Source: an uncultured Clostridia bacterium (lineage in GTDB: Bacteria > Bacillota > DTU014). From it: 64,000 nucleotides of DNA. Below, piece after piece: positions 29,179 through 47,999 of the stretch. The stretch is from positions 1 to 64,000 of the forward strand of contig FIZI01000020.1 in the NCBI GenBank assembly GCA_900016865.1. Reading direction: 5' to 3'. A program made the translations under genes and the position numbers. The notes under the pieces were generated by a model. It saw only the letters and a list, made by a program, of their open reading frames with translations. It was not told where the DNA came from and made no database searches. Numbering within the stretch: position 1 is the stretch's first letter; every line of letters begins with the position of its first letter.

Positions 29179-30501
29179 TCAACCTGAGCAAGGCTTGTAC
29201 TGTCGGGGCATGTACGCATTCTTGAAGCCAAAATACTCCTCGCATGCCTTGGCTACAGCCTGAGCCTTTTCCAAAGCCTCAGGAGAGATAAACACATAAA
29301 AGCGCCACAGTCGTCTATGGGAGGCCATGAGGACCTGAAGCTCGGAGTTTCGGGCAGTGACATCCTTCAGAGACTCCGCCTCTCTTAGACCTGCTATAGG
29401 CACATCTGCCTCCTTGAGTTGCATGTCGGGCGACGGGCAGTATATGATCAGCTGCCCGTCCTTGAGCCCGCTGTTGCGGCACAACTCCGATTCAGCCCTG
29501 CTGCGTCTATCCGCATCAAAATGGTAAAGAGCAGACAAGTGAGAGACAACATCTTCAAAGGCTCCGGAATCAAGGCTTTCCGCGTCTCTATGCAACACAT
29601 AGCACCGCTTGTACAGGCGGCGGTATCTGATCATTTCAGCCAGCTGCTCGGCCAGCGGAACCTTGGATGTTCGCAGTTCGTTAATCAGTAGCCAGTCATC
29701 CGAGCAGGCCAGCTTTTCCAGAGAGATTCTGCCTTCGAACAGGGCCACCTCTACCGCCTTGGATATCATGGCCCCTGCCGCCACTTTCGTGTGGTGATAG
29801 TACACACGTTCGGAGAGGAAATACCTCATCCTTAACAGGTTGATTATTTCAGAGAGCGCGTCTTCGCGCACGTCTCCGTTCCTGCCGACCCGGAAGACGA
29901 GTCCCCTGCTGCTGTCTAGCTCCAGGTAACGAAATACCCGCTCATCGTACGATGGAGACAACCCGCAAAATACTGCGTCACGCTTGAGGTAGTCAGCCAA
30001 ATCCGCAGATATGGCTCCGCTAATGATCTGATGGCCGTACGCCGGCACAGTTGAAGCTGTGCTGCGGGTAAGGATCGCGATCACCGGTTCTAGCAACCTC
30101 TTGCTGCGAAGCAGCCTCCCCAATTCGCCTCGGTCAAGCGCCTGGACGAGGCGCTCAGGCGAGTCATGCCTATCGAATACACGGCGCTCGTCTTCGAAAG
30201 TATGCCCGAACGGAAGGTGGGACACATCGTGAAGGAGAGCAGCTATTGAGATCACTCTCGCGTCATAATCGTCTATCGATTGGGAGCCGCAAGATAGGGC
30301 TCGGAGGATGCGCTTGGTGAGCCAGCACGTGCCGATACAGTGGTCAAAACGGGTGTGCAGGGCCGTCGGATAGACGAGATAGGCAGCCCCTAATTGCTTA
30401 ATCCCTCTCAACCTTTGCATCTGTGGAGTGTCCAGGATACTGACTTCCTCTGAAGTCAACTCGATATCGCCATGGATGCAATCACGAACTACTACAGTCA
30501 T
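29179..30501 (-). CDS. HD-domain phosphohydrolase (COG1078/SAMHD1-like)
   Basis: A 440-residue HD-superfamily hydrolase. The N-terminal half carries the metal-binding pattern: His in HTRFDHCIG, the His-Asp pair in ALLHDVSHLPFGH, and the last Asp in ISADLADYLKRD. These resemble dGTPase/SAMHD1-type enzymes, so a nucleotide or cyclic-nucleotide substrate is plausible but unproven. The C-terminal half is helical without a recognised motif. The ATG overlaps the recN stop (ATGA). The gene is last in the run ispA-dxs-tlyA-nadK-argR-recN, and no clear terminator follows it. Confidence 0.8.
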   Translation of the reverse strand: MTVVVRDCIHGDIELTSEEVSILDTPQMQRLRGIKQLGAAYLVYPTALHTRFDHCIGTCWLTKRILRALSCGSQSIDDYDARVISIAALLHDVSHLPFGHTFEDERRVFDRHDSPERLVQALDRGELGRLLRSKRLLEPVIAILTRSTASTVPAYGHQIISGAISADLADYLKRDAVFCGLSPSYDERVFRYLELDSSRGLVFRVGRNGDVREDALSEIINLLRMRYFLSERVYYHHTKVAAGAMISKAVEVALFEGRISLEKLACSDDWLLINELRTSKVPLAEQLAEMIRYRRLYKRCYVLHRDAESLDSGAFEDVVSHLSALYHFDADRRSRAESELCRNSGLKDGQLIIYCPSPDMQLKEADVPIAGLREAESLKDVTARNSELQVLMASHRRLWRFYVFISPEALEKAQAVAKACEEYFGFKNAYMPRQYKPCSG

Positions 30502-32231
30502 GACGTTCTCCCATCTGGCCCTGTTGCGGCCATCATCTTTCGAGCATGCGCTATGCTTATCTCCGTCACTTCACCGTCCAGCATCCTGGCCAGCTCGGCT
30601 TCTCTCTGCTGCCTGCCCAAACGATTGACAATCGTATATGTCTTGCCGTCGACTACATCTTTGGCGATACTGTAGTGGCTGTTTGCTACACTGGCGATCT
30701 GTGGCAAGTGTGTCACACAGATAGTCTGCTTGCTCGCTGATATCTGGCGCAGTTTGCGAGCAACCGCATGCGCTGTTGCACCGCCGATACCCACGTCGAT
30801 CTCATCAAACACAACAACGGGGATCTTGTCGCACTCGGCAAGCACTGACTTGATCGCTAGCATAATCCTTGAGATCTCGCCCCCGCTGGCGACGCTCGCA
30901 AGCGGCTTCAGAGGCTCGCCTTCGTTAGCGCTAAACAGCATTTCGATGCTGTCCATTCCGGTCGGGCCGATCTCTACGATCTCGCCGTTAACATCGAAAC
31001 CTTGGTCCGAAGCTCTCCTAGATACTTGGATGTCAAACCGCGCCCGCGATAGAGCAAGGTCCTTTAGGCTGTCTGTGACCATGGCGCTCAGGCGCTTGGC
31101 TGCTGACACTCGGATTTGAGAAAGGGCCTTTGCGCTCTTGATGAGTTGGTCAGCGATACGCTGAATATCGCTATCGATAGTCGCCAACTCAACTTCTGAC
31201 TGCTGTAGCTCTGAGAGCTCCTTGGCTGCTTCGTTTCTGTAGGCAATCACGTCGTCAATCGTAGATCCGTACTTGCGCTTGAGCGAGTTGAGCAAGTTCA
31301 GTCTGGTTGTCACTTCTGACAGCCGCTCTGGGTCTACGTCACAACTATCTGCAAGGTCTCGCAATTGCCTCGACAGGTCTCGGACTATGATTGCGGCTTC
31401 CTTGTACTGCTCACTCACAGAATGGGCCTGTCTGTCGATCCGAGCAACCCGAGAAAGGTCTTCGGCTATGGCATCCAGCCTCGACGCCAGGCCACCTTCT
31501 CCGTCATATCCCTCGTAGAGCTCATAATACGATCTCTCATAGATCTCTCTCACTGCCTCAATGTTCTCGAGGCGATGCTGCTCCTCCTCAAGCTGGGCGT
31601 CCTCTCCGGGCTTGAGCATAGCGTTGTCTATCTCATCAACCTGGAACTTCAGCAGGTCTATCCTTTGGACCCTCTCCCGTTCGGATGACTCGAGATGCGT
31701 CTTGGTCCTTGTCAGTCGGTCGTGGTCCTTGTACAGCCGGGAGATCTCCTCAAGGAGGGCAGCGGCTCTCTCCCCCGCAAAACTGTCGAGCAGGTCCCTC
31801 TGAACTGACCTGCGCAAAAGCGACTGGTGTTCATGTTGGCCATGCAAGTCAACAAGCAAATCCCCGATCTGCCTCAGCTGAGCTAGGGTGGTACGAAGGC
31901 CGTTGACCCTGCACACGTTCTTGCCGCTTCTTGTGATCTCCCTTGATAAGACAACCTCACCCGGGTTGTCTCCTACCAGCTCGAGCTCTTCCACAAGCCT
32001 CCACGCATGCGAGTTGCAGTCTATCTGAAACGTCGCCTCAACGTATGCACTGTCTGCTCCAGTGCGTATCAAATCAGAACTCGCGCGCATTCCGAGAGCG
32101 AGGTTGATAGAGCCCACAATGACGGACTTGCCTGCACCCGTCTCGCCGGTGAGCACGTTCAGCCCATCGGTGAACTCAATCGCCTGTTTACCTATCAATG
32201 CGAGATTGGCTATGCGCAGCTCTGACAGCAA
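30498..32231 (-). CDS. recN: DNA repair protein RecN
   Basis: A 577-residue SMC-like ATPase acting in double-strand-break repair. Walker A is TGETGAGKSVIV, the ABC signature is SVASGGEISRIMLA, Walker B is VVVFDEIDVGIGG, and the centre is coiled coil (about 155-370). An ATG at 32246 reads into its own GGGAGGT, so TTG at 32231, six bases after that site, is the likely start and gives the usual N-terminus LSELRIANLALI. It follows argR closely, as in Bacillus and clostridia. Confidence 0.97.
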   Translation of the reverse strand: MLSELRIANLALIGKQAIEFTDGLNVLTGETGAGKSVIVGSINLALGMRASSDLIRTGADSAYVEATFQIDCNSHAWRLVEELELVGDNPGEVVLSREITRSGKNVCRVNGLRTTLAQLRQIGDLLVDLHGQHEHQSLLRRSVQRDLLDSFAGERAAALLEEISRLYKDHDRLTRTKTHLESSERERVQRIDLLKFQVDEIDNAMLKPGEDAQLEEEQHRLENIEAVREIYERSYYELYEGYDGEGGLASRLDAIAEDLSRVARIDRQAHSVSEQYKEAAIIVRDLSRQLRDLADSCDVDPERLSEVTTRLNLLNSLKRKYGSTIDDVIAYRNEAAKELSELQQSEVELATIDSDIQRIADQLIKSAKALSQIRVSAAKRLSAMVTDSLKDLALSRARFDIQVSRRASDQGFDVNGEIVEIGPTGMDSIEMLFSANEGEPLKPLASVASGGEISRIMLAIKSVLAECDKIPVVVFDEIDVGIGGATAHAVARKLRQISASKQTICVTHLPQIASVANSHYSIAKDVVDGKTYTIVNRLGRQQREAELARMLDGEVTEISIAHARKMMAATGPDGRTS

Positions 32232-32254
32232 GGCCGTACCTCCCATGCAATCCT

Positions 32255-32710
32255 CTAGGCGCGAAGCGCATCAAAGCTGGACAAAAGCTCGACTGCCCGC
32301 TCCTTTGGCCTGGCAATCACAAGCACGGTATCATCCCCTGCCAACGTGCCGACGATACCCGGCCAGTGAAGGTCATCAACTACATCGCCAACAGCGCCGG
32401 CGTGACCCGGGAGCGTTCTAATGAGCACTAGGTTCTCGCTGTAGTCAACTGACAATACTGAATTCGCAAACACGCGTCTTGCCCTGTCCTCGGGATCACC
32501 CTGGTGCACCATAGCCGGTGGCAATGAATATCGATACTCGCCCGTGCGAGTCGCCACCTTGATCAGCCCCATCTCCTTTATGTCCCGAGAAACCGTAGCC
32601 TGAGTGACCACAAATCCGACCTGGGCCAATTCCTCAGCCAACTGCTCCTGCGTATTGATAACCTTCGAACTGACTATTTCTCGAATCTTTGCGTGCCTCA
32701 GACTCTTCAT
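32255..32710 (-). CDS. argR: Arginine repressor ArgR/AhrC
   Basis: A 151-residue arginine-responsive regulator that represses arginine synthesis genes as a hexamer. The N-terminal winged helix contains AQVGFVVTQATVSRDIKEMG. The C-terminal arginine-binding and oligomerisation domain has TLPGHAGAVGDVVDDL and GTLAGDDTVLVIAR with the Asp pair that contacts arginine. The ATG overlaps the nadK stop (ATGA). Its position between nadK and recN is conserved and does not imply that those genes are its targets. No arg genes are in the window. Confidence 0.97.
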   Translation of the reverse strand: MKSLRHAKIREIVSSKVINTQEQLAEELAQVGFVVTQATVSRDIKEMGLIKVATRTGEYRYSLPPAMVHQGDPEDRARRVFANSVLSVDYSENLVLIRTLPGHAGAVGDVVDDLHWPGIVGTLAGDDTVLVIARPKERAVELLSSFDALRA

Positions 32711-33615
32711 GGATCATCACCATCCGAATCAGGCTGGTATCTAGGCCGTTCTCGCAGCTTTTCACGAAGAATCCGGTAGAAACTGTGGCCCGGAAATCGG
32801 ACAAATCTCGCTGACCAGGGGGATCTCCTTACCCGCACCTGGTCGTCTGAGGACAACCTATGCCCGACCTGTCCGTCCACAGTAAGCACTGTGTCTTGTC
32901 CACTCGTCGTAACCGAAATCCTGACCTCTTCGTCGCCAGAGATGACTTGCGACCGGGAGTACAAGGTGTGCGGGCATATAGGCGTCACTACAAGGCACTC
33001 AAACAGCGGGTTGACAATCGGGCCTCCGGCTGAGAGCGAATATGCAGTGGACCCAGTAGGAGTGCAGACAATAACTCCGTCAGCCGGCACAGTCTGAACG
33101 TATTCGGACCCTACCGATATATCTATGGTGAGCATGCGAGAAAAGCCGCTCTTGTTGAGCACAGCGTCATTGAGCCCTGTGAATTTGCCTACGACCTCAC
33201 CACCTCTTTCCACTAGTGCCTCTAGCATCATTCTCTGTTCTACGTAATACTCTCCTCTTTGCACAGCAATGATCGCGTCCAGAGCGTTCTCACCTTCGAC
33301 TGCACTAAGGAACCCCAAGTGCCCCAGATTCACGCCCAAGATCGGGACGCCGAAAGAGGCCGCAAGACGCGCTGCTGCCAACAGACTGCCATCGCCTCCA
33401 AGGACCACCAGCATATCTAGGCTGGACAAAACCTCCGAATGACTTGACGCAGGCTGAGTCAGCCAGCGAGCCTGCTCGTTGGGGTCACCAAAGCAGGTAT
33501 CCTGATATAGCGGAACAGCGTCGATCCGACGCTCACACATCCACTCGTACAGCTCTCGAGAGGCCTCTGCAGCCTTGCCGCGCTTAAGACACATGACTCC
33601 AAATCGCAAATTCAC
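32707..33615 (-). CDS. nadK: NAD kinase
   Basis: A 302-residue ATP- or polyphosphate-dependent NAD kinase, producing NADP. The GGDG motif lies in MLVVLGGDGSLLAAAR, followed by LGVNLGHLGFLS, LNDAVLNK and the signature ADGVIVCTPTGSTAYSLSAG. GTG at 33615 overlaps the tlyA stop (GTGA); TTG at 33609 has better spacing from GGGGGT and is an alternative. It is cotranscribed with tlyA and argR. The last 20 residues are hydrophilic and not conserved. Confidence 0.96.
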   Translation of the reverse strand: MNLRFGVMCLKRGKAAEASRELYEWMCERRIDAVPLYQDTCFGDPNEQARWLTQPASSHSEVLSSLDMLVVLGGDGSLLAAARLAASFGVPILGVNLGHLGFLSAVEGENALDAIIAVQRGEYYVEQRMMLEALVERGGEVVGKFTGLNDAVLNKSGFSRMLTIDISVGSEYVQTVPADGVIVCTPTGSTAYSLSAGGPIVNPLFECLVVTPICPHTLYSRSQVISGDEEVRISVTTSGQDTVLTVDGQVGHRLSSDDQVRVRRSPWSARFVRFPGHSFYRILREKLRERPRYQPDSDGDDP

Positions 33616-34433
33616 ACCCCCTGAGAGCCAAGAAGATCACGATGAGCAGCAGCTACACACTGCTCAACGTCTGAATCGGAGACCGTCTCTGACCAGTGTT
33701 CTCCGGGTTTGAGGTGAACCAAAAACTCGATGTTGCCCTGAGGCCCGGTTATAGGCGAAAATGTTAGAGACACAGGAGAAAGGCCGGATTGCTTCATAGA
33801 GTCGAACACAGAGAGCAACGCCTCGACATGTGTCTTTGCATCTCTGACTACGCCCTTTTTGCCAACCAGTTTTGGGCCAACCTCAAACTGCGGCTTAACG
33901 AGCACAATCAGATCAGTTGTCTCAGATGAAAACTCGTGAAGTTTGTGCGCAATTTTGGACAAAGAGATAAACGAGACGTCAACGGTGATTACATCAAGGG
34001 AATCGGCTATAGCTGACCTCTCAAGATAGCGAAAATTAGTCTGCTCCAACACGACCACTCGTTCATCGCACCGAAGCTGCCACGCGAGTTGGCCCTTGCC
34101 TACGTCTACTGCGTACACTCGCTTAGCACCCCGCTGGAGAAGGCAGTCTGTAAACCCGCCGGTCGAAGCGCCTACATCCATAGCCACTTTATTCTCTACA
34201 TCGACTCCGAACACCTCTAGCCCCTTTTCCAATTTATGTCCGCCACGCGAGACATACCGCGGAGACCGTGGCCTCAATTCGATGAGAGACTCAACAGGGT
34301 AACGCATTCCCGGTTTGGTTGCAGCCACGCCGTCTACAAGCACTTCGCCTGCTATGATCATGCGCCTTGCTTCTTCCCTTGATTTCACCAATCCGCTCGA
34401 GACTACTAGTATATCAAGACGTTCCTTGTCCAA
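33612..34433 (-). CDS. tlyA: TlyA family rRNA (cytidine-2'-O)-methyltransferase
   Basis: A 273-residue protein with an N-terminal S4 RNA-binding domain (RLDILVVSSGLVKSREEARR) and an FtsJ-type methyltransferase (VAMDVGASTGGFTDCLLQRG; catalytic-type Lys in YVSRGGHKLEKG and VLVKPQFE). The family methylates ribosomal RNA; older annotations call it hemolysin A. The start is TTG at 34433, eight bases after AAGGG, overlapping the dxs end by 20 bases. The dxs-tlyA-nadK-argR-recN order is conserved in Firmicutes. Confidence 0.94.
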   Translation of the reverse strand: MDKERLDILVVSSGLVKSREEARRMIIAGEVLVDGVAATKPGMRYPVESLIELRPRSPRYVSRGGHKLEKGLEVFGVDVENKVAMDVGASTGGFTDCLLQRGAKRVYAVDVGKGQLAWQLRCDERVVVLEQTNFRYLERSAIADSLDVITVDVSFISLSKIAHKLHEFSSETTDLIVLVKPQFEVGPKLVGKKGVVRDAKTHVEALLSVFDSMKQSGLSPVSLTFSPITGPQGNIEFLVHLKPGEHWSETVSDSDVEQCVAAAHRDLLGSQGV

Positions 34434-36369
34434 CTTCCTCACCCTTAGCCTGAAGCGGCAACAACCCCTCGTGAACCGGTGCTGTTGCACCTAACGGAGC
34501 GAGCAGCTCAAGGACTCTGGCAGCTACACTCTCAGGATCCAGCCCGAACTCCCGCAGCAGCCTATCCCTGCTCCCATGTTCTACGAATACCCTCGGTATT
34601 CCTAGATTCAGGACTCGGGCTTTTTTCGAGCCCGGTAGTTGAGCAATGATCTGGGCTATCGCACTCCCCATTCCACCCTCAATGCATCCTTCCTCCAAGG
34701 TGACGATGGGCATCCTCCTTGCAGCTATGTCCAATATAGTCTTGCGGTCGATCGGCGAGGCAAAGCGCGCATCAACCACAGCGCACGACACGCCAGACTC
34801 AGCTAGTCTACTGGCGGCTGCCTCAGCCACGGGCGTCATTGAACCAAGTGAGATCAGAACGACGTCTGTCCCATTGATGATAGTCTCTGCACGGCCATAG
34901 ACGATTGGCGCCCTTTGCTCTCGCCTTGGCTGTGGGCTTGTCCCTTTGGGATACCTGATAGCTACGGGCCCGTCGAACGAGAGAGCGAACTTGAGCATAG
35001 CTGTCAGTTCCTCACGATCTCTCGGAGCCAAAACGGTCATGTTGGGGATATGTCTCAGGAAGCATATGTCAAATATCCCCTGGTGAGTCTGGCCGTCTTC
35101 TCCAACTATGCCTGCCCTATCGATTGCAAACACAACGGGCAATCCGAGGATACAGACATCATGCATTATCTGGTCGTAGGCACGCTGCAGGAAAGTAGAG
35201 TACACTGCGACAACCGGGCGCAACCCCGCCTTCGCCAGCCCTGCTGCAAGTGCCACTGCATGGCTTTCAGCGATCCCAACATCAAAAAATCTCTCGGGGA
35301 ACTCCACTGCAAACCGCTCCAAACCGGTGCCGGCTGTCATAGCTGCGGTGATTGCCACTATGTCTTCCGACTCGCCAGCAAGCCCCACCAACGTTTCGCC
35401 GAATACTTGCGTAAACGTAGGCTCACTAGGAGGGCTCAGCTCTATCAGGTCCCCGCTCTTAAGCTCAAACGGACCGACTGAGTGGAAACGTTCCGGGTTG
35501 GACTCCGCGTGCTCGTACCCTTTTCCTTTTGTGGTTGCAACATGGACCAGGACCGGGCCACCTCTCCTTCTCGCATCAGAAAGCGACCGAGTCAGCCCTG
35601 GGATGTCGTGCCCTTTCACCGGCCCTATGTACGTGAATCCAAGCTCTTCGAACATCGTAGGAACGACAAGATACTTGATGCTGCCCTTGACGCGGGTGAC
35701 TAGATCCGACATCGTTGATCCAATAGCAGGAATGCGGCGGATGAGCTCTTCTATGTCTTCCTTGACTCTAACTACTCCAGGGTTCAGACGAATGCGGGTG
35801 AGACACGACGCGAGCGCACCTACATTGGGAGAGATAGACATCTCGTTGTCATTGAGGACTACTATGAGGTCGGTCTTGAGGTGGCCTGCATGGTTCAAAG
35901 CCTCGAAAGCCATGCCGCCAGAAATCGAGCCGTCGCCTATGACACACACAACAGAGTAGTCCTCGCCCCTTAGGTCCCTAGCCTTCGCCATGCCGAGTCC
36001 AATGCTTATTGACGTGCTGCTGTGGCCTGCGACAAATGCATCGTGTTCGCTTTCGGTGGGTTTAGGAAATCCACTTATGCCACCGTATTGGCGCAATGTG
36101 TAAAAGAGATGTTTACGGCCGGTAACAAGCTTGTGGACATAGCATTGGTGTCCTACGTCCCAGATGATGCGGTCGCGAGGGCTGTCAAACACTCTGTGCA
36201 GGGCCAGAGTAAGCTCAACCACCCCAAGATTGGGTGCAAGATGGCCTCCTGTAACGGCTACAGTATTGATGATCTCCTGCCTCAGCTCCTCTGCGAGAGC
36301 TGCAAGAGTTGGGTTGTCCAGTGCCTTCAAGTCTTGCGGACCGGATACACGATCCAATATCCTACCCAT
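34414..36369 (-). CDS. dxs: 1-deoxy-D-xylulose-5-phosphate synthase
   Basis: A 651-residue TPP enzyme that joins pyruvate and glyceraldehyde-3-phosphate in the first step of the MEP isoprenoid route. It has HLAPNLGVVELTLALH, DVGHQCYVHKLVTGR, the TPP motif CVIGDGSISGGMAFEALN and the transketolase segment AIDRAGIVGEDGQTHQG. The ATG at 36369 overlaps the oapA stop (TGATG), with GAGGAG eight bases upstream. It lies downstream of the OLE RNA and OapA, with ispA on the other side, so an isoprenoid context surrounds the RNA. Confidence 0.98.
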   Translation of the reverse strand: MGRILDRVSGPQDLKALDNPTLAALAEELRQEIINTVAVTGGHLAPNLGVVELTLALHRVFDSPRDRIIWDVGHQCYVHKLVTGRKHLFYTLRQYGGISGFPKPTESEHDAFVAGHSSTSISIGLGMAKARDLRGEDYSVVCVIGDGSISGGMAFEALNHAGHLKTDLIVVLNDNEMSISPNVGALASCLTRIRLNPGVVRVKEDIEELIRRIPAIGSTMSDLVTRVKGSIKYLVVPTMFEELGFTYIGPVKGHDIPGLTRSLSDARRRGGPVLVHVATTKGKGYEHAESNPERFHSVGPFELKSGDLIELSPPSEPTFTQVFGETLVGLAGESEDIVAITAAMTAGTGLERFAVEFPERFFDVGIAESHAVALAAGLAKAGLRPVVAVYSTFLQRAYDQIMHDVCILGLPVVFAIDRAGIVGEDGQTHQGIFDICFLRHIPNMTVLAPRDREELTAMLKFALSFDGPVAIRYPKGTSPQPRREQRAPIVYGRAETIINGTDVVLISLGSMTPVAEAAASRLAESGVSCAVVDARFASPIDRKTILDIAARRMPIVTLEEGCIEGGMGSAIAQIIAQLPGSKKARVLNLGIPRVFVEHGSRDRLLREFGLDPESVAARVLELLAPLGATAPVHEGLLPLQAKGEEVGQGTS

Positions 36370-37034
36370 CAACTGATCTCCTCTGTGCTAGCTCGGGCTT
36401 CGCGCTTCTCGTTCTTAGACTTGCCCGTTCGCCTATCCTTTTTTCTCCGTTTGAAGGAGTTGACAAGCGGGCCTAGCCTAAGTGTGGTCTCGATGAAATA
36501 GATCACCCTCCCGACAACCATCAATACTCTCACATAGTTATGTATTGCCATGCTCTTGCAGTAGGCCTTCCCACCGACAGTAACCGCCGCGGTAGTGGCA
36601 AGAAGCACTGTATTGACTGCATCCAGGGTAGCCTGACGTGTATTGGATGCGATCTGAAAGACGATGGTTGCTACGACAGCGCCGCTTAGGGTCCCACATA
36701 TGTCTCCAACGACGTCATTGCAGAAGTTGGCGACAGCGTCAGCTGCATGCACTACTCTCAAAGCTTCCTTGGCACCCCGCACTCGCTCGGATGCCATGGC
36801 TGTAAAAGGATCGGGTTGAGCTGCAGCGGCAGCTGTTCCAACCAAGTCAAAAACTATGCCGATGAGAACTATCGCAAGGAGAACCAATACAGACTGGAAT
36901 AGGCCTAGCTGGCTGAGTGCGGAGATCGAGCCGAAGTTCAGCAAGGCACTCAAAAAAAACGTCCATGATCCAACGATCAGGACTCGTCGCAACTTGGAAG
37001 TTGATGTTCGCATCGTCAGGCTAAGAACCCCCAT
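36369..37034 (-). CDS. oapA: OapA, OLE RNA-associated membrane protein
   Basis: A 221-residue integral membrane protein encoded directly after the OLE RNA. It has hydrophobic stretches at roughly 17-40, 46-68, 112-130, 137-153 and a weaker one at 167-182, and a very basic tail (about 194-214). A conserved-looking NFCNDVVGDICG segment gives the Asp107-x3-Asp111 pair that matches the DxxxD motif known for OapA. The family is known to bind OLE RNA and bring it to the membrane; that role is assumed here from position and motif. The start is uncertain: ATG 37034 has no clear ribosome site, and ATG 37013 is possible. Its stop overlaps dxs. Confidence 0.82.
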   Translation of the reverse strand: MGVLSLTMRTSTSKLRRVLIVGSWTFFLSALLNFGSISALSQLGLFQSVLVLLAIVLIGIVFDLVGTAAAAAQPDPFTAMASERVRGAKEALRVVHAADAVANFCNDVVGDICGTLSGAVVATIVFQIASNTRQATLDAVNTVLLATTAAVTVGGKAYCKSMAIHNYVRVLMVVGRVIYFIETTLRLGPLVNSFKRRKKDRRTGKSKNEKREARASTEEIS

Positions 37035-37064
37035 TCCGGCAACCAGGTATCAACATCTGAACCC

Positions 37065-37748
37065 CGCCTGACGGAGAATCCTTGCCGGTTATGTAGTGGG
37101 TGATGCCGAGTGGCAGCATCCTGAGTAAACATTGTGGCATTAGGTCTAGTAGGTTTTCCCCACCCGGTATCCGTCGTCGCCGAACGGACGGTTTCCCTTT
37201 ACACCAAGCGTCCCGCTGTCGCCAAACGAGAAACTAGATCGCCTGTAAGCCACACCCTAATCCTCAGGATGCCCCGCAATATGCGGACAGTCTAGGAGTT
37301 TTCCTCATCGTCTCCTGTCGGTTCCTAGCCTCTTTTGCAGTGCCTGCTTCACCTGGCAATAGGCCAAGATCCCTGGCCAAAGGATCAAGGCTTGAACCCA
37401 AGTTCCCACAGGGACCGCTCAAGGCAGGCTACACTACACCCAGCCCTGTTAGGTGCCCTCTCAGGCCGGACCGGCATGTAGGTTCTCCCCACGCCGTGGA
37501 TCCTCCGTGCGAAACACAAGAGTGTGAATCACCGGCCTCACCACGAACGTGGGTCTCCGCGAGGGCAGGGTCAACGCCCGCATGCCATTGCGGATCGCCC
37601 CACCCTCTTAACCCCCAGCACTAACCCCCGACTGGGCGTCAAGAGCCAGCACCAGGGACTTCATCGTTGTGCCCTCTGGCGGATTTTTAGCCCCGCCTTC
37701 AGAACCGATGAAGCCGACTAGAATACTGCGCCACCCAAGCGTAACGCA
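37065..37748 (-). ncRNA. ole: OLE RNA (ornate, large, extremophilic RNA)
   Basis: About 680 bases without a credible ORF, between the PAP2-like gene and oapA and transcribed toward oapA. Many complementary segments fit a large folded RNA: a 5' hairpin (37745-37751 with 37724-37730), a long-range 8-bp helix CGATGAAG/CTTCATCG (37706-37713 with 37659-37666) enclosing GGCGG/CCGCC (37678-37682 with 37693-37697), and others toward the 3' end. Known OLE RNAs are about 600-700 bases, lie just before oapA, and are flanked by ispA and dxs; all three hold here. A sigma-A promoter is just upstream. The 5' end is set by that promoter; the 3' end is approximate. In other bacteria OLE forms a membrane ribonucleoprotein linked to stress tolerance. 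Confidence 0.87.
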
Positions 37749-37753
37749 GTAAT

Positions 37754-37782
37754 ATTATAACATAGGCCCGGCTTGCCATCAA
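37754..37782 (-). promoter_or_regulatory. Sigma-A promoter of OLE RNA
   Basis: TTGATG (37777-37782), a 17-base spacer and a perfect TATAAT (37754-37759) on the minus strand, predicting a start near 37748, at the base of the first hairpin of the RNA. The RNA can therefore be made independently of the upstream operon. Confidence 0.85.
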
Positions 37783-37849
37783 GGAGCCCAACCAGCCTGC
37801 ACTGCGTGGCACAGCGGCGTTAGCTCGATAGAGTCTGATCCGCTCGCCT

Positions 37850-38293
37850 CTACGAAGTCATGATAACGCTTACTGCCACTCCCAACGCCGCACCGGCCAG
37901 CACCTCAACAGGGGTATGGCCTAGGAGTTCACGCAATCGGTTCTCCCGAATGCGGCCTGAATGAAACAGTTCGTCGACGATGTGGTTGAGGACCGCAGCT
38001 TGCTTTCCAGCTGCTCGCCGAATCCCGGCTGCATCGTACATGACAACCAATGCAAACCCTAGAGCAAGGGCAAATAAAGCGCTGTCAAAGCCTGCTTCGA
38101 TACCGATAGCCACGGCAAGTGATGACGTGAAAGCAGAGTGCGAACTAGGCATTCCACCCGGGCCTGTAAGTCTACGGAAATCGATCTTTCGGTGTCTCAC
38201 GTAGTGTGTCAGTACTTTGAGCACCTGTGCAATCAGCCATGATACCGTAGATGATATGAGTGCAGGATTCTGTATCATGCCTGACACATGCAA
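37850..38293 (-). CDS. Divergent PAP2 family (DUF212) membrane protein
   Basis: A 147-residue membrane protein of the YuiD/DUF212 group, related to PAP2 acid phosphatases. The motif trio is present: GGMPSSHSAF (where PAP2 has PSGH), RRAAGKQAAVLN, and LLGHTPVEVLAGAALG. Four hydrophobic helices are likely. The substrate could be a polyprenyl diphosphate, which would suit the neighbouring ispA, but that is inference. The start is TTG at 38293, eight bases after AAGGAGGT. It lies between ispA and the OLE RNA, whose promoter starts about 70 bases after its stop. Confidence 0.87.
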   Translation of the reverse strand: MHVSGMIQNPALISSTVSWLIAQVLKVLTHYVRHRKIDFRRLTGPGGMPSSHSAFTSSLAVAIGIEAGFDSALFALALGFALVVMYDAAGIRRAAGKQAAVLNHIVDELFHSGRIRENRLRELLGHTPVEVLAGAALGVAVSVIMTS

Positions 38294-38324
38294 GACACCA
38301 CACCTCCTTGGGCCAACTCACCGT

Positions 38325-39233
38325 CTAGCGATCCCGAGTCGCCGCGTAGTCTAGTATCTCACTAAGGAGCGTATTGGACAATCCTTCGGCAGCAAGCGCT
38401 TCGTGGCCGCTTGCGACAGCCTCGAGCATCAGCCGTTGCGACTCTTCCATGCCAAAGACTGCCGGATAAGACGCTTTCTTCTTGCTATAGTCAGAACCGA
38501 CACGCTTTCCCAAAGCAGCCTCATTGCCGATAACGTCGAGCATGTCGTCCCTAATCTGAAACACGAGACCCAGAGCCCTTGCGTAAGCGCTGAGCGAGGA
38601 CAAGACTCTATCAGAGGCACCGGACAAAATAGCCGCTGCCCTGACAGCAGCCAAGAATAAAGCTCCGGTCTTGGCAGCGTGAATAGACCGCAGGAGGTCG
38701 ACACTGACATCTGCTGCCCCAGTACTGGCTATGTCAAGTGCCTGCCCGCGGACCATGCCTTCAGGGCCCGCTCCGACTCCGATTTCTTCGATACACCTCA
38801 GCAGCCGGTCGTGGGTAACCGGCGGACTTATCGGCATTCCTGCCAGTGTCACAAACGCCAGGGTCAGGAGTCCATCGCCTGCAAGAACAGCCATTGCTTC
38901 GCCAAAGACGCGATGGTTTGTCGGCATGCCCCTTCGCAAGTCATCGTCATCCATACACGGCAGATCGTCGTGAATGAGCGAATACGCGTGGATCATCTCC
39001 AATGCGCAGGCTGCATCCAGCACATGAGCGTGTGAGCCAAAAACCACGTCTGCTACTGCAATCATCAATACCGCGCGCAACCGCTTGCCACCTGAGAGCA
39101 GTGAGTATCGCATTGCTTCGTAGATGCGCGCCGAATCGTCCCGGCTCGGCCTGACAAGCTCATCCAGCCGCTGTTCTACCTCTGACTTGCAGGCCTTCAT
39201 GAACTGAAGCAAGCCAGTATTACTCTGCTTCAT
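38325..39233 (-). CDS. ispA: Farnesyl diphosphate synthase
   Basis: A 302-residue short-chain polyprenyl synthase that condenses IPP with DMAPP and GPP. The first Asp-rich motif is DDLPCMDDDDLRRG, with the longer DDx4D spacing of bacterial FPP synthases, and the second is FQIRDDMLDVIG. The lysine-arginine segment SGGKRLRAVL is present. GGGGGAGG lies before the ATG, which overlaps xseB by 14 bases. With dxs it brackets the OLE locus; the product feeds quinones, undecaprenyl phosphate and the MiaA donor pool. Confidence 0.96.
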   Translation of the reverse strand: MKQSNTGLLQFMKACKSEVEQRLDELVRPSRDDSARIYEAMRYSLLSGGKRLRAVLMIAVADVVFGSHAHVLDAACALEMIHAYSLIHDDLPCMDDDDLRRGMPTNHRVFGEAMAVLAGDGLLTLAFVTLAGMPISPPVTHDRLLRCIEEIGVGAGPEGMVRGQALDIASTGAADVSVDLLRSIHAAKTGALFLAAVRAAAILSGASDRVLSSLSAYARALGLVFQIRDDMLDVIGNEAALGKRVGSDYSKKKASYPAVFGMEESQRLMLEAVASGHEALAAEGLSNTLLSEILDYAATRDR

Positions 39234-39477
39234 CGTCCGCCTCCCCCACCGCAGGCCGGTCCATCCCTTCTGCTTTGTCAGTCAGATGTGTGATCCTAAG
39301 CTCGGCATCTTCCAATTCGCTCCTGCAACTGCGAGCCAGGGCAACAGCTTCCTCGAAGAGCTCCAAGCTCTTTGCCAAGCCGAGCTTCCCCTCCTCCAGT
39401 GTCTCAACTATTCTCTCAAGCTTCGCGAGTCTCTCCTCAAAGGACATCTTTTCCAAATTCTCAGTGCCGACCGCCAC
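39220..39477 (-). CDS. xseB: Exodeoxyribonuclease VII small subunit
   Basis: An 85-residue subunit that caps the XseA coiled coil. The conserved FEERLAKLERIVETLEEGKL and LAKSLELFEEAVALARSC helices are complete. A GTG at 39489 overlaps GGAGGT, so GTG at 39477, ten bases after it, is likelier. It overlaps xseA and ispA at its two ends, so the three are translated as a coupled set. Confidence 0.93.
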   Translation of the reverse strand: MAVGTENLEKMSFEERLAKLERIVETLEEGKLGLAKSLELFEEAVALARSCRSELEDAELRITHLTDKAEGMDRPAVGEADDEAE

Positions 39478-40720
39478 CTGCGGGCTCACCTCCTACACCT
39501 TTGACGCGGGCGCTAAACACCCCATCCGAGACCCTGACTTCAATATCGTCTCCTGGCGCCACTTGGCTGGTACTTAAGACAAGTTGGTTGCTCCGCATGT
39601 TTGTAACCAACGAATAACCTCTGCTTAGCGTCTTCAGCGGGCTGCAGGCCTCTAACCGCCCTGCGATCAGTCCCAGCTTGGTGTTCCTTGGCTCAATGAT
39701 CTTTGTCAGAGCCAACTCCAATCTGTGTGCCAACTCCTCAAGTGCCTGCCTATGCGACCCGGTGATCATATCAGGCCTTCTGAACACCCACGATGATTGG
39801 AGTGCCCGCATCCTTGATTGGCACATATCTGCCAGAGCAATCAGAGACCTCTTCGCTCTGGATTCCATGTGAAAAATCTGATCGAGAACAGAAGACATAT
39901 CCGGGACTACCATCTCAGCTGCAGCCGACGGGGTTGGAGCCCGCACATCAGCGACTAGATCGCATACGGTGAAATCCCTCTCATGGCCGACTGCACAGAC
40001 CATCGGAAACGGCATGTCAGCTAACTGCCGGGCAACAGATTCATCGTTGAAAACCCAGAGGTCATCGGCGGCTCCCCCGCCTCGGGTCAGTATTCCAACA
40101 TCGAAGCGGCCATCCTCCGCAGCAGCGTCGAGCGCGCTCAGTATGGACGAGACCGCGTTGTCTCCCTGAACCAAACAAGGGACAACTACCAGCTCTACAA
40201 TCGGATATCTTCTTTTCATGACTGCAATGATATCCTTTAGGGCGGCTCCTTCGGGCGAGGTAATGACTGCGATCCTTCTCGGAAACCTAGGAAGGTCCCG
40301 CTTTCTTGCCACATCCAGCAAGCCGTCCTCTGCAAGCCTTTGCCTAGTGAGTTCGAAGCTTCGGGCAAGGGCTCCATCTCCCAGGCCCAGTATCTGCCGG
40401 GCATAAAGCTGATAGGTGCCGCCGCGAGTATACACGCTGATGTCCCCGTAGACGATCACACTGAGACCGTCGCTCAAACGAAAGGGAACTGAGACTGCGT
40501 CGCTCCTGAACATGACACATCTGATCCTGGACTGATGGTCCTTCAGGCTGAAATAGATGTGCCCGGACTGAGTGTGATGGTGCAAGTCTGCGATCTCCCC
40601 GCGAACCCAACAACCCTGTATCTCATCGTGACTGTCCAAGATCTGCTTTAAGTGCGTGTTGATCTCCGTCACTGTTACCGACTGGGCCAGCAGTCGTATT
40701 GAATCGTAGAAGTGCGCCAC
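39461..40720 (-). CDS. xseA: Exodeoxyribonuclease VII large subunit
   Basis: A 419-residue catalytic subunit for single-stranded DNA degradation. The N-terminal OB fold has WVRGEIADLHHHTQSGHIYF, the nuclease core has RIAVITSPEGAALKDI, LTRGGGAADDLWVFNDE and VGHERDFTVCDLVAD, and a long coiled coil follows before the C-terminal RGYSLVTN segment. GGGAGGT lies six bases before the GTG at 40720. It follows nusB by four bases. Confidence 0.96.
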   Translation of the reverse strand: MAHFYDSIRLLAQSVTVTEINTHLKQILDSHDEIQGCWVRGEIADLHHHTQSGHIYFSLKDHQSRIRCVMFRSDAVSVPFRLSDGLSVIVYGDISVYTRGGTYQLYARQILGLGDGALARSFELTRQRLAEDGLLDVARKRDLPRFPRRIAVITSPEGAALKDIIAVMKRRYPIVELVVVPCLVQGDNAVSSILSALDAAAEDGRFDVGILTRGGGAADDLWVFNDESVARQLADMPFPMVCAVGHERDFTVCDLVADVRAPTPSAAAEMVVPDMSSVLDQIFHMESRAKRSLIALADMCQSRMRALQSSWVFRRPDMITGSHRQALEELAHRLELALTKIIEPRNTKLGLIAGRLEACSPLKTLSRGYSLVTNMRSNQLVLSTSQVAPGDDIEVRVSDGVFSARVKGVGGEPAGGGRH

Positions 40721-40724
40721 CAGG

Positions 40725-41156
40725 CTACCTCCCAGACTCGCGATTTCTCTTAATCACTCCAGCGAGCACACCGTTGACAAAACGGGCAGACTCCTCGGAG
40801 CCGTACTCCTTCGCCAGCTCCACAGCCTCATTGACTGTAACGGCCTCCGGTATGTCAGGCCTGTGGAGAATCTCGTAGACACCGAGCCTCAAAATCGCGA
40901 GTTCAACCTTGCCAAGTCTATCAGGGCTCCACCTTAATGTGGCATCTCTGATCTCTGTATCAATGGCTTCCAGGTTTTCAAGGACTCCGTCGACAAGTTC
41001 CCTCAGAAACTGTGTATCCACATCAGGCTCGTCCGTGTCTCCATCGCACTCAAGGACAGACGCGATCGACTCCTCTATGGAATTGGCTGAGAGGTCTATC
41101 TGGTAGAGCACTTTGATGCACTTCTCCCTGGCTTCTCGTCGGTTCATGCGCCGCAT
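40725..41156 (-). CDS. nusB: Transcription antitermination factor NusB
   Basis: A 143-residue all-helical NusB that binds boxA RNA with NusE (S10) to support rRNA transcription. It has the RREAREKCIKVLYQIDL start, AILRLGVYEILHRPDIPEAVTVNEAVELAK and FVNGVLAGV near the end. The ATG at 41156 follows GGAGG by four bases. The open frame extends upstream to 41279 but that part lacks similarity. The roughly 125 bases between DUF2273 and this start hold no recognised feature. Confidence 0.96.
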   Translation of the reverse strand: MRRMNRREAREKCIKVLYQIDLSANSIEESIASVLECDGDTDEPDVDTQFLRELVDGVLENLEAIDTEIRDATLRWSPDRLGKVELAILRLGVYEILHRPDIPEAVTVNEAVELAKEYGSEESARFVNGVLAGVIKRNRESGR

Positions 41157-41281
41157 ACTGCCTCCAACCCCTTCCGTCAGAATGTGCAATGACCGCCCAG
41201 AGGCGGTCACAACCTTACACTCACCACTGCAAATCACAGAGACGTTGCGCCGAGCCGTTTGCCCGGACGTCAGTGTCACAT

Positions 41282-41512
41282 CTAACGCCGTCGCCTCAAC
41301 AGACTGGAAGACAGCAGTGAACGAATGAGATCCTCCTCTTCAACTATCCTTCCCAGTCCGTAGCCAACAAGCACACAGATAGAGAAAGCCAGCGCTTTGC
41401 CGAATCCGCAAAAGACGGCTATGATCCCTGCAATCACGCCTATCAGCAGCCCAATTACCCTACTGCGACGCTCAAAAGCGAGCTTCAGTATGGACCGAGC
41501 TTCGTCATTCAT
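41282..41512 (-). CDS. DUF2273 small membrane protein
   Basis: A 76-residue protein with two membrane helices (VIGLLIGVIAGIIAVFCGF and ALAFSICVLVGYGLGRIV) and basic ends. This matches the DUF2273 family, which is almost always next to asp23/amaP. GGGGTG lies six bases before the ATG at 41512. A role in anchoring or regulating the alkaline-shock complex is inferred only from its neighbours. Confidence 0.83.
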   Translation of the reverse strand: MNDEARSILKLAFERRSRVIGLLIGVIAGIIAVFCGFGKALAFSICVLVGYGLGRIVEEEDLIRSLLSSSLLRRRR

Positions 41513-41582
41513 TCGGTACACCCCACTCTCAGCCCGCATAGATCTGCTACACGCACAACCAATCAAAGCTTTCTGACAAAAT

Positions 41583-42125
41583 CTACTGAGCGACTCGCGA
41601 CCTGGACGCTCCAGATGTGTCCTTGACGTTTATGTGAATCTCCTTGACAGGGACACCAACCAGCTCGCTCAAGTGATCTCTCAACGCGACCTGAACCTGC
41701 TGACTCACTGCAGGAATGCTCTCATCGGATGCCACTGACACATCAACCGTCACGATCAGGCCATCTGCGTCGCCGTCTACTCTAGTACTGCTCTCGCGGA
41801 CGCCCTTGACTTCTCTCGCTACACGCCTCACCGCGTTCTCGATCGCCTTCATCGAGATGTTGATACGCCCAATGTCAGTGGAGGTGGCTACCACTCGCTC
41901 GTCGGGCTCCCGTTCGAGCATGGACCGGACTAAAACGATAGACGCAAGTACACAAATCAGGGCAATAACAAGCGACGGCCACAGATGTGTGCTGCTGAGG
42001 TCTTCGATCGCTGCTGACAGAGAAGCCCTGACACCCCCGTCGATTAGGGCTGCGACTAATAGACACGCTACGACCAAGTACAACAGTACGGCTAAGAACA
42101 CTGAGACTCGTTCGTACAGCTTCAT
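41583..42125 (-). CDS. amaP: Alkaline shock response membrane anchor protein AmaP
   Basis: A 180-residue protein with two N-terminal membrane helices (about 9-27 and 50-67) and a cytosolic domain related to Asp23 (VDGDADGLIVTVDVSVASDE, ending EIHINVKD). In Staphylococcus the homologue anchors Asp23 to the membrane. It lies between asp23 and DUF2273, the standard order. GGAGG precedes the ATG at 42125. This forms the envelope-stress part of the acc-asp23-nusB run. Confidence 0.88.
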   Translation of the reverse strand: MKLYERVSVFLAVLLYLVVACLLVAALIDGGVRASLSAAIEDLSSTHLWPSLVIALICVLASIVLVRSMLEREPDERVVATSTDIGRINISMKAIENAVRRVAREVKGVRESSTRVDGDADGLIVTVDVSVASDESIPAVSQQVQVALRDHLSELVGVPVKEIHINVKDTSGASRSRVAQ

Positions 42126-42192
42126 GACTGACGCCTCCTGAGATAGCCGAAGACTTAACTACGGCTTGTCAACAACCGCGGCAGCGGCCTCG

Positions 42193-42579
42193 CTACCTAA
42201 CTCTGGCCGGCTCTTCGGGTTTCTCCTCAACCTGGAAGTGCACTCCCTGGATGTGGACATTGACCTCAACGACAGTGAGCCCGGTCATGCTGGTTATGGC
42301 CCTGGACACGTTCTCCTGGACCCTGAGGGCCACTTCCGGAATCGAGACGCCGTAGTTGACCACAAGGAACAGGTCTACAGCGGCCTCTCTGTCTCCGACC
42401 TCCACCTTAACACCTTTTGATAGATTCCTCTTTCCAAGGAGCTCGGCTATTCCCCCGGCAAGTCCTCCGCTCATGCCGGCAACGCCGTCTACTTCGGTCG
42501 CAGCCAACCCTGCGATGATCGCCACGACTTCGTCGGCAATCCTCACGTTGCCTATATCCATTCTCTCCGTGTTCTCCAA
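42193..42579 (-). CDS. asp23: Asp23/Gls24 family envelope stress protein
   Basis: A 128-residue Asp23-domain protein with GNVRIADEVVAIIAGLAATE at the N-terminus, then EVDGVAGMSGGLAGGIAELL, and the VNVHIQGVHF strand near the end. The family forms membrane-associated filaments through AmaP and is tied to cell-wall stress. TTG at 42579 lies after GGGGGTG; the longer ORF to 42624 would overlap accC. The conserved position next to accC and nusB makes this the constitutive YqhY-type paralogue, which in Bacillus is linked to acetyl-CoA carboxylase activity. Confidence 0.9.
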   Translation of the reverse strand: MENTERMDIGNVRIADEVVAIIAGLAATEVDGVAGMSGGLAGGIAELLGKRNLSKGVKVEVGDREAAVDLFLVVNYGVSIPEVALRVQENVSRAITSMTGLTVVEVNVHIQGVHFQVEEKPEEPARVR

Positions 42580-42610
42580 GGATCGCACCCCCTGTCGGTT
42601 TCTCTCGACT

Positions 42611-43966
42611 TCAAGCTTTATCAAGGCCGAGGACTACTGCAGGGTCTTGGTCAGTATAGATCCTCGCCTCGCGGAACTGCTGGCTACGCATCAATTCGCG
42701 GTGGAACGGAATCGTAGTCTTAATGCCACCCACTTCGAACTCGTTAAGCGCCCTACACATCCTATTGATTGCGGCCTCTCTGTCATGACCCCATACTATG
42801 AGCTTGCCGAACAGCGAATCGTAATACGGAGAGATCACGCAGCCAACATATGCCGAGCTGTCGACCCTAACTCCAGGCCCGCCTGGGGCATGGTATCGAG
42901 TGATTCGCCCTGGCGACGCCAAAAAGCCGTTCATAGGATCCTCTGCGTTCAATCTGCATTCGATCGAATGTCCAATAAACTTGACGTCCGACTGCCTTCT
43001 GCCCAGCTGTTCGCCTGCCGCAACCCGCAGCTGCTCACGGACCAGATCAATCCCCGTGACCATCTCAGTGACAGGATGCTCTACCTGTATTCTGGTATTC
43101 ATTTCGATAAAATAATGGCGCCCAGACCCGTCAACAAGGTACTCCACTGTACCGACGCCTACGTACCCGACAGCTCTGGCTATCCGAATCGCTCCGTCGG
43201 TCATTGCCCGTCTGAGCTTTGGGGTCAGGATGGGCGATGGCGACTCTTCTACGACTTTCTGCCCTCTTCTCTGAATCGAGCAATCGCGCTCGCCGAGATG
43301 AACAACACTGCCGTATGCATCTGCAAGGATCTGGACCTCTACATGCCTTGGGTTTTCGATAAACTTCTCGATATACAGCTCCCGGCTGCCAAAAGCGATC
43401 TCTGCCTCAGAAGCGGCTGTGAGAAAAGCCCTGCGGAGTTCTCTCTCGTCTCTCACCACGCGAAGGCCCTTCCCTCCCCCGCCTGAGGAGGCCTTGACCA
43501 TTACAGGATAGCCTATCATCGAGGCAATAGACAAGGCATCATCGAGACTCTCGATTGGCCCAGGGCTACCGGGGACTATGGGAACTCCAGCCTTGTCGGC
43601 TATTCGCCGAGCAGCGGACTTGTCGCCCATCTTCTCCATAGCGTCTGCAGGAGGGCCGACAAATCGAATGCCGTGCTCCTCACAGATATCCGCAAAATGA
43701 GCCTTCTCAGACAAGTTGCCGTATCCTGGATGAATAGCGTCTGCGCCGCTGATTATAGCAGCACTGATTATGCTAGGAATATTGAGATAGCTCTTTGTGT
43801 TCTCAGGGGGGCCTACACAGATGGCTTCATCAGCCATCAACACGTGCAACGAGTCTCGATCTGCCTCCGAGTAGATCGCAACAGTTGATATGCCCATCTC
43901 CTTGCACGTACGGATTACCCTTACAGCGATTTCACCACGATTGGCGATTAGGACCTTTCTAAACAC
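42611..43966 (-). CDS. accC: Acetyl-CoA carboxylase, biotin carboxylase subunit
   Basis: A 451-residue ATP-grasp enzyme that carboxylates the biotin on AccB for fatty acid synthesis. It has FRKVLIANRGEIAVRVIR, HPGYGNLSEKAHFADIC, the ATP loop VKASSGGGGKGLRVV, HLGERDCSIQRRGQKVVEE and EMNTRIQVEHPVTE. The start is GTG at 43966, 11 bases after GGAGG. It follows accB by about 40 bases. The carboxyltransferase subunits (accA, accD) are not in the window. Confidence 0.97.
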   Translation of the reverse strand: MFRKVLIANRGEIAVRVIRTCKEMGISTVAIYSEADRDSLHVLMADEAICVGPPENTKSYLNIPSIISAAIISGADAIHPGYGNLSEKAHFADICEEHGIRFVGPPADAMEKMGDKSAARRIADKAGVPIVPGSPGPIESLDDALSIASMIGYPVMVKASSGGGGKGLRVVRDERELRRAFLTAASEAEIAFGSRELYIEKFIENPRHVEVQILADAYGSVVHLGERDCSIQRRGQKVVEESPSPILTPKLRRAMTDGAIRIARAVGYVGVGTVEYLVDGSGRHYFIEMNTRIQVEHPVTEMVTGIDLVREQLRVAAGEQLGRRQSDVKFIGHSIECRLNAEDPMNGFLASPGRITRYHAPGGPGVRVDSSAYVGCVISPYYDSLFGKLIVWGHDREAAINRMCRALNEFEVGGIKTTIPFHRELMRSQQFREARIYTDQDPAVVLGLDKA

Positions 43967-44004
43967 CCGAAGCACCACCTCCGATCGACTGCTTATCAAG
44001 GACC

Positions 44005-44472
44005 TCAGGCGTCCTGCAGAACGAACAGAGGCTGGCCATATTCAACCGGCTCTTCGTTGTCCACAAGGATCTTGATGATTTTGCCACGGCGTTCCGCCTC
44101 AATCTCATTCATGAGCTTCATAGCCTCGACGATACAGACTGTCTGACCAGGCTCGACGATATCGCCGACCTCAACAAAAGGCTTTGCGCCAGGCGCAGGA
44201 GCCCTGTAAAAGGTACCCACCATCGGCGACACAATCGTGAACTGATCGGGCAAGAGCGAGTCTGCCTGATCGGCGTTCTCGCCATACTCTCCTGACGCCA
44301 GATCAGGCTCCGGAGCGCCCTGATCGCTCGGGGCCGTTGCGTCCTTTTTCTGGACAGTTTCTCCCCACTTTCTCATGATGAGCTTATCGCCGTCTGCTGA
44401 CTCGTATTCAAATTCAACCAGCCCGCTCTCGTCTATGAGGCTGATTAACTCCTTGATCTCACTGAGTTTCAT
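44005..44472 (-). CDS. accB: Acetyl-CoA carboxylase, biotin carboxyl carrier protein
   Basis: A 155-residue BCCP. The biotin-accepting Lys119 lies in VEAMKLMNEIEA, within a C-terminal biotinyl domain preceded by VGTFYRAPAPGAKPFVEVGD (the 'thumb' region of AccB). The N-terminal helix MKLSEIKELISLIDESG and an acidic/Ala linker are typical. GAGGACGC precedes the ATG at 44472; the longer frame to 44520 has no support. It follows spoIIIAH by about 135 bases in which I see no terminator. Confidence 0.96.
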   Translation of the reverse strand: MKLSEIKELISLIDESGLVEFEYESADGDKLIMRKWGETVQKKDATAPSDQGAPEPDLASGEYGENADQADSLLPDQFTIVSPMVGTFYRAPAPGAKPFVEVGDIVEPGQTVCIVEAMKLMNEIEAERRGKIIKILVDNEEPVEYGQPLFVLQDA

Positions 44473-44608
44473 ATGCGTCCTCGGCGTTTGGAAACCTCTC
44501 ACGCCAAAGGGGTCTTTCACCTTCCTCTCGTGGCCCCGCTACTACCTGCTCACTGTCCATCAAAGACTCATCAGTCCTATTCACCACATAGAACCATTAT
44601 CCTTCTTA

Positions 44609-45277
44609 CTAGAGACCTCCCTGGTACTCCTTGATTCGGATCTCATGCAGCTTGCGGCCTGTCACTCTAGAAAGAATTCCTCCTATCACTGCAGCATCAT
44701 CCTTGTCAAGACCATCACTGGCAACTATAGCTTCAACGGTCTGCTCACCCACGATGACCAACGCGTCTTTGAACCCGCCTGCACGGATCAGTTCCTCTGC
44801 TGAACTCTCCATTTCCATGGCTGCCACAAGCTCGAGGAGCTTGCGCTCTGCCTCGGTGCCTCGGCCTTCGCCTCCGAGCCTGTCAAGTGTCTCTCTCAAC
44901 AGCTCCAACTCCCTGCTGCGTGTGTAGTCTCTCGAAAGCCTGGCTGAAGCTATTCCGCTGCTTCCATAATCATATTCGATTCTTGCTGAGAGCAGGGCCT
45001 GCTCATGCTCAGCAGCCGCCTGCAAGGCAGAAGTCACAGGCTCCTCTTGTCTTGAGTCGTCTGCAAGGTCCACGTCTAGATCAATACCTCGTTCCGGCTG
45101 CGCGACTGTCAGTTCACCTCCAGTGGTCGTGACAATCGTCGGCCAATCCAAATCGCCTAGTGCAGGCGATTCCCTCAGTTTGAGCATAACCGCCAACGAA
45201 GCCCCGCCAATCAAGCAAACAAGTGCCATCAACAAATATATGGTTCTCCTCTTGATCAGTACTACTCTCGTCTGCAT
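44609..45277 (-). CDS. spoIIIAH: Stage III sporulation protein AH
   Basis: A 222-residue mother-cell protein that spans the membrane once (about 12-31) and carries a YscJ/FliF-like C-terminal domain (AEELIRAGGFKDALVIVG). It pairs with forespore SpoIIQ across the two membranes to form the feeding-tube channel. GGAGGT lies ten bases before the ATG. It is the last gene of the spoIIIA operon. The middle is acidic and low in conservation, as usual. Confidence 0.95.
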   Translation of the reverse strand: MQTRVVLIKRRTIYLLMALVCLIGGASLAVMLKLRESPALGDLDWPTIVTTTGGELTVAQPERGIDLDVDLADDSRQEEPVTSALQAAAEHEQALLSARIEYDYGSSGIASARLSRDYTRSRELELLRETLDRLGGEGRGTEAERKLLELVAAMEMESSAEELIRAGGFKDALVIVGEQTVEAIVASDGLDKDDAAVIGGILSRVTGRKLHEIRIKEYQGGL

Positions 45278-45283
45278 CGTGAC

Positions 45284-45901
45284 TCATACCTCCTTCTCGA
45301 CCACCGCTACTCGATGAAGAGCGACTCCGAGTGCTGAGGACACAGCTTGGGCTATCTCAAGCCGCACTTCGGGTGTTGAAGCCCCTTCAGCTACAACTAG
45401 CACTCCGCGGACTTTAGGAGGCTCTACGCCTACCATCACTAGTTCTTCGTTTCCGCCCGATTTGCGAACCACAATCGGTTCGGTAGTAGTTGTGCTGCGC
45501 TGAGTCGTCCTGACTCCGCCGCTAGAGTCATGCTCCTCTATCCTCTCAGTGTCGTTGCTGCTAGAAGTCGCATAGATAGTCTGCCTGTCGGTTTCGAGTG
45601 TAACCACAACAGAGACTGACCCGATGCCGCGCATCTGACTGATCGCCCGCTCGAGGCTTGACTCGAGGTCTGAAACGTAGTCGCTCGCACCAATCTCAGT
45701 GTCTCTCAAGCCAAGAGGAGGGCTCGGCTCTACATGGCCAGGCTTCTGCACATACCTCGCGGATCCGATCAGTATCAGGATGATTCCCAGTATCCCTAAA
45801 ATGGCCAGGGGGATGATGTCTATTCGACTCCGGCTTCCCGCTCCAGTGGAGTCGGAGTTTTGGCTGTTTAGGCGCAGCAGCTTCCTTAACCGCTCAACCA
45901 T
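45284..45901 (-). CDS. spoIIIAG: Stage III sporulation protein AG
   Basis: A 205-residue membrane protein with one N-terminal helix (IIPLAILGILGIILILIG) and a ring-building domain that in B. subtilis forms a 30-subunit pore in the mother-cell/forespore channel. SDYVSDLESSLERAISQMRG and RGVLVVAEGASTPEVRLEI match the family. The Ser/Thr-rich insert (about 125-155) corresponds to the beta-triangle region. ATG 45901 is six bases after GGGTG and overlaps spoIIIAF by eight. Confidence 0.95.
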   Translation of the reverse strand: MVERLRKLLRLNSQNSDSTGAGSRSRIDIIPLAILGILGIILILIGSARYVQKPGHVEPSPPLGLRDTEIGASDYVSDLESSLERAISQMRGIGSVSVVVTLETDRQTIYATSSSNDTERIEEHDSSGGVRTTQRSTTTTEPIVVRKSGGNEELVMVGVEPPKVRGVLVVAEGASTPEVRLEIAQAVSSALGVALHRVAVVEKEV

Positions 45902-46319: not shown

Positions 46320-46328
46320 CGAAAACAC

Positions 46329-47543: not shown

Positions 47544-47593
47544 GCAACCCCCAAAGCCCGCGAAGCCCGCATCATCGTCACGTCAGCCTCGAC

Positions 47594-47989: not shown

Positions 47990-47999
47990 TGCCTTCACC

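Follow-up and report, generated by a model that had tools for sequence, protein, structure and literature searches.

A full-length OLE RNA upstream of oapA in an uncultured Clostridia bacterium

The minus strand of the window, the whole 64-kb stretch of DNA analysed here, carries an ole gene, and its identity as OLE RNA is virtually certain. Positions 37094–37750 (−) match the Rfam OLE model RF01071 end to end (cmscan, model 1–616 of 616) with 478.6 bits and E = 5.5e-138, against a gathering cut-off of 50 bits, and the RNA is of the full-length type. The earlier note had placed an OLE RNA at 37065–37748, and the model match agrees with those coordinates within ~30 nt and bears out the strand, the size and the partner gene, oapA, which lies downstream. 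At 657 nt by the model, the RNA is inside the 600–700 nt range of the class, and a genome-wide RF01071 search finds one copy in the source genome. OLE is a large membrane-bound stress-response RNA recorded in thousands of Gram-positive bacteria, among the largest structured bacterial RNAs without known biochemical function, and this copy extends its range to a further lineage, one that encodes all of the established partners. We are very confident of the reading as a whole, that of a full-length OLE RNA in an OapA-linked particle.

Fold and sequence of the RNA

As a single strand, the RNA folds with an energy of −303 kcal/mol (20 shuffles, z = −6.0). For comparison with other members, a MAFFT alignment of 40 OLE sequences, the majority of them from phylum relatives, was made without fitting to the Rfam model. 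The Rfam structure, as given by the cmscan alignment, was then projected onto the row of the window RNA, where 146 of the 154 projected pairs are standard. Among the 40 relatives, both sides have changed in 118/154 Rfam pairs, a count reached in none of 500 shuffles (87.3 ± 3.1), and 1043 cells are changed on both sides as against 369 ± 18 in the shuffles. Paired cells make up 85.6% of the alignment in the projected register and 39–48% when the structure is slid by one to three columns. The secondary structure is thus conserved among relatives, as it should be if the earlier proposal was right, and many alignment columns are invariant. In the long variable stem that precedes the conserved central block, the outer helices are only 34–68% paired between distant species; a divergent hairpin aligned with MAFFT can be expected to give such values.

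The window RNA is longer than the Rfam model (657 versus 616 nt), the extra ~41 nt stemming from two extensions in variable hairpins. The first is an insert of 39 nt that caps a variable helix (37501–37539 (−); 17 nt in the Rfam consensus) and is predicted to form an additional hairpin; the surrounding segment 37484–37556 folds with −36.5 kcal/mol (z −3.5). The next variable hairpin has a 19-nt insertion relative to the model (37448–37466 (−)), also seen in a genome of the same family (L038), and both extensions are shared in part with that relative. Farther towards the 3′ end, two hairpins carry GGCGAC apical loops, at 37218–37223 (−) and 37176–37181 (−). They form a putative OapB-binding region, with the hairpins tentatively assigned to helices P12.2 and P13, the region to which OapB binds on OLE RNA (PMC9723947). 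A few near-invariant bases differ, for example GT to CA at 37245–37244, with one base missing nearby; most substitutions at such positions are common to L038.

Locus, transcript and protein partners

A gap between genes at this place had been pointed out before, and it is real, but its length is 815 nt, from the oapA start at 37034 to the end of the DUF212/PAP2-like gene at 37850, and not ~680 nt. No recognisable gene lies within it, in keeping with the earlier view. Open reading frames of ≤94 aa are present, and were set aside as an explanation of the stretch, for which the OLE RNA model accounts. The gene order ispA – DUF212/PAP2 – ole – oapA – dxs is as had been claimed, with an ispA-type polyprenyl synthetase at 38325–39233 (−; 200.6 bits), a DUF212 divergent PAP2-family membrane protein as the upstream neighbour of ole (37850–38293 (−); 168.7 bits), oapA at 36369–37034 (−) and, downstream of it, dxs at 34414–36372 (−). 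These genes are part of a same-strand cluster (30498–49784 (−)) that comprises recN, argR, nadK, a tlyA-like gene, dxs, oapA, ole, DUF212 and ispA and, beyond ispA, xseB, xseA, nusB, accC, an accB-like gene, SpoIIIAH, SpoIIIAE and SpoIIIAA. The source organism is probably spore-forming. Besides OLE, Rfam matches only a tRNA and an FMN riboswitch (62237–62383 (+), 102.3 bits) in the window; the latter precedes an ECF-transporter substrate-binding gene at 62512–63159, probably encoding a riboflavin transporter.

Upstream of ole, a predicted sigma-70-type promoter (37754–37782 (−)) consists of a −35 element TTGATG (37782–37777), a 17-nt spacer and an extended −10 element TGTTATAAT (−10 hexamer 37759–37754). 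It matches the consensus at 10 of 12 positions, has TG before the −10 hexamer and stops 3 nt short of the model start, and the promoter layout upstream of ole in L038 is identical. Among 58 relatives, TATAAT occurs within −50 to +12 of the model start in 38 (shuffles: mean 5.9, maximum 13), and TGnTATAAT just upstream of ole in 30 (shuffles: mean 0.28, maximum 3). From this promoter, transcription would probably start near 37747. In having a promoter of its own, the window gene fits the ole gene of H. halodurans, which is transcribed from its own promoter inside a larger operon (PMC9723947). We would expect transcription from a sigma-A promoter belonging to ole itself, with some read-through from ispA–DUF212. 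Because the window shows no terminator separating ole from oapA, the 3′ end of this RNA would be made by processing. Processing of the OLE 3′ end is known for H. halodurans (PMC11332333), and work on that species and on C. acetobutylicum suggests that the RNA here may be trimmed or terminated near 37094.

OapA, a membrane protein of 221 aa with an alternative ATG start at 37013, is a distant relative of the CNNM domain. Its CNNM match is below threshold (21.2–24.8 bits, cut-off 28.4), and a weak match has also been published for OapA. The protein is 32–66% identical to 55 OapAs encoded downstream of other ole genes, has hydrophobic segments at 17–74, 107–131 and 135–188, and contains four residues, D107, D111, K156 and K160, that are invariant in 56/56 sequences. 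Matched by spacing and residue number, D107 and D111 correspond to D100/D104, the pair mutated in the PM1 protein of H. halodurans (PMC9723947): the spacing is equal, and with a translation start at 37013 the numbers agree as well. With the window OapA as query, genome contigs yield 26 loci, and OLE lies upstream in 19 of the 20 scanned (named records).

A KOW-domain search of the source genome did not find OapB, which was recovered by reading the interval between map and infA; the homologue at L045:12280–12570 has as its best PDB match 7k9b, ‘OLE-associated protein B’ (E = 2.6e-13). An OapC homologue is encoded between rpoC and rpsL (L046:4332–4601; best PDB match the YbxF-type L7Ae protein 3v7e, E = 3.2e-8). 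By homology and gene location both are putative OLE partners here, OapC being only moderately YbxF-like, and a bS21 gene is present elsewhere in the genome. OapB occurs in ~60% and OapC in ~45% of OLE species, and neither is obligatory.

Distribution of OLE and detachment from oapA

OLE is present in 47 of 61 phylum relatives and OapA in exactly those 47, so that the two are concordant in 61/61. In a wider draw of 200 phylum genomes, OLE was detected in 152 and OapA in 153, with kinship ignored. One genome has OapA without an OLE match in the fast search (G197) and another has three OLE pieces (G202), possibly split or missed ole copies. The earlier note spoke of a few extremophilic Firmicutes, but OLE extends well beyond a few extremophiles, as is shown by this draw and by a published survey that lists 2,822 Bacillota genomes (PMC11332333). 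Since most phylum genomes carry OLE, the window copy is unexceptional among its relatives; it adds a member to a known class and is ordinary within the phylum. One more sequence would refine the consensus, as had been hoped, but only slightly.

MpfA, the competing Mg2+ exporter, is more frequent where OLE is absent, with MpfA in 11 of the 14 genomes that lack OLE versus 14 of the 47 that have it (Fisher p = 0.0017; 61 genomes, kinship ignored), which repeats the published anticorrelation. No MpfA was found in the source genome, which is 96.9% complete.

Two relatives have unusual loci. G015 (L041:9343–9999; G015:C15:391342–391998) has a decaying ole of 169.9 bits, an oapA remnant interrupted by stops, and MpfA; RNA and partner seem to have been lost together. 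In G013 (L043:4648–7483), ole comes immediately after remnants of phage genes of the portal and Mu-F-type head kinds, and its 5′ end is overlapped by a scaffold-like open reading frame, an arrangement suggestive of a prophage remnant or a rearrangement beside ole. The idea of a phage-borne OLE, prompted by this locus, was dropped: 50,697 phage records contain no OLE match, and the conserved 5′ OLE pattern has no match in 2.9 million viral contigs by exact search, which divergent copies may escape.

In eight relatives (L042, L043, L047, L079–L083), ole has no oapA within 1.5 kb. All eight genomes have oapA elsewhere, and in G118, G169 and G193 it is far away on the same single-contig chromosome. 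An intrinsic terminator (hairpin plus T-run) lies near the model 3′ end in 7/8 of these orphan copies versus 3/64 of the oapA-linked ones (Fisher p = 6e-7); six of the terminators start between −11 and +9 of the model 3′ end and one at +27, which helps to define where OLE ends. Because five orphans form one clade in a tree of OLE RNA sequences (support 1.0) and the other three each stand beside linked copies, ole and oapA have probably become detached at least four separate times. That both parts are kept after each detachment, and that the orphan gene nearly always bears a terminator, makes it probable that OLE works in trans and that its 3′ boundary is fixed. We found no mention of such detachment in the part of the OLE literature that our search covered. 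The window's own RNA is the ordinary, oapA-linked form. As self-contained genes with defined ends, orphan ole copies offer a convenient way to express and test the RNA separately from oapA.

Proposed role and relation to known OLE RNAs

In H. halodurans and C. acetobutylicum, OLE is a stable, dimeric RNA in a membrane-bound ribonucleoprotein, with stress phenotypes (PMC12265935, PMC12286853). Assembly at the membrane has been shown experimentally in other species (PMC12265935, PMC9723947, PMC12286853), and we consider it highly likely here too. By analogy with H. halodurans and C. acetobutylicum, the RNA would fold, dimerise and be anchored in the membrane through dimers of OapA. The P5/P6 k-turn region would be the binding site of OapC and bS21, and the P12.2/P13 hairpins that of OapB. 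The particle would then regulate OapA, which is related to CNNM Mg2+ transporters, and so adjust divalent-ion balance and growth under stress. This role in metal homeostasis through OapA-mediated ion handling is our preferred inference, although we would give it only an even chance of being correct.

The rival account that comes closest to it assigns OLE here primarily the part of a ribozyme, for example one that makes a signalling nucleotide, with OapA as an anchor; it differs from regulation of a transporter in mechanism only and leaves the identity of the RNA as it is. The size, complexity and conservation of OLE, including the many invariant columns among the 40 relatives, are like those of large ribozymes, and the Breaker group has proposed such a function, including the idea of a c-di-AMP synthase (PMC11332333). 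On the other hand, catalytic activity is not reported in the OLE literature searched, and two patterns, the almost complete co-occurrence with a CNNM-like protein and the inverse relation to MpfA, point to ion handling, which is compatible with catalysis. We regard a primarily catalytic role as unlikely, though well within consideration.

Much further from the evidence is a cis-regulatory leader, in which the structured element would be a riboswitch-like 5′ UTR of the oapA–dxs operon and not a free-standing RNA. The RNA does stop just 59 nt short of oapA, which starts on the same strand with no intervening terminator, and the H. halodurans cluster is also transcribed polycistronically (PMC12265935). 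However, cis action is impossible in the eight relatives that have oapA elsewhere, nearly all of whose ole genes, unlike most linked copies, have a terminator close to the 3′ end or directly at it, and OLE is known to act as a stable RNA of ~600 nt (PMC9723947). The orphan genes argue strongly against a purely cis-acting leader, an explanation that we consider very improbable. Slighter still is the chance that the locus is a decaying ole gene from which no working particle is made any longer. The altered near-invariant positions and the missing base could be taken for decay, and G015 provides a precedent in the phylum; yet the score of 478.6 bits, the 146 intact pairs and an intact oapA with all invariant residues speak against it, and most of the substitutions are common to L038, which keeps a full OLE, an OapA of 66% identity and the same promoter layout.

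The preferred reading, a full-length OLE RNA working with OapA, can be set against three known systems. OapA differs from MpfA, which has CBS and CorC domains after CNNM, in that the window protein stops after the membrane domain and a short basic tail. OLE variants 1 and 2 (the TANB77 and RF39 types) are of the same class as the window RNA, with P7/P8 short or missing and, in variant 1, often without the OapB site (PMC11332333); assignment to either was ruled out, the variable helices of the window RNA being longer than consensus and both GGCGAC hairpins being present. With the full-length RF01071 type, such as that of H. halodurans, the window RNA shares all 616 model positions, the conserved hairpins and loops, an oapA directly downstream and the ispA/dxs/tlyA/nadK/argR/recN neighbourhood, and it departs from that type in its ~41 additional nucleotides and a few changed near-invariant bases.
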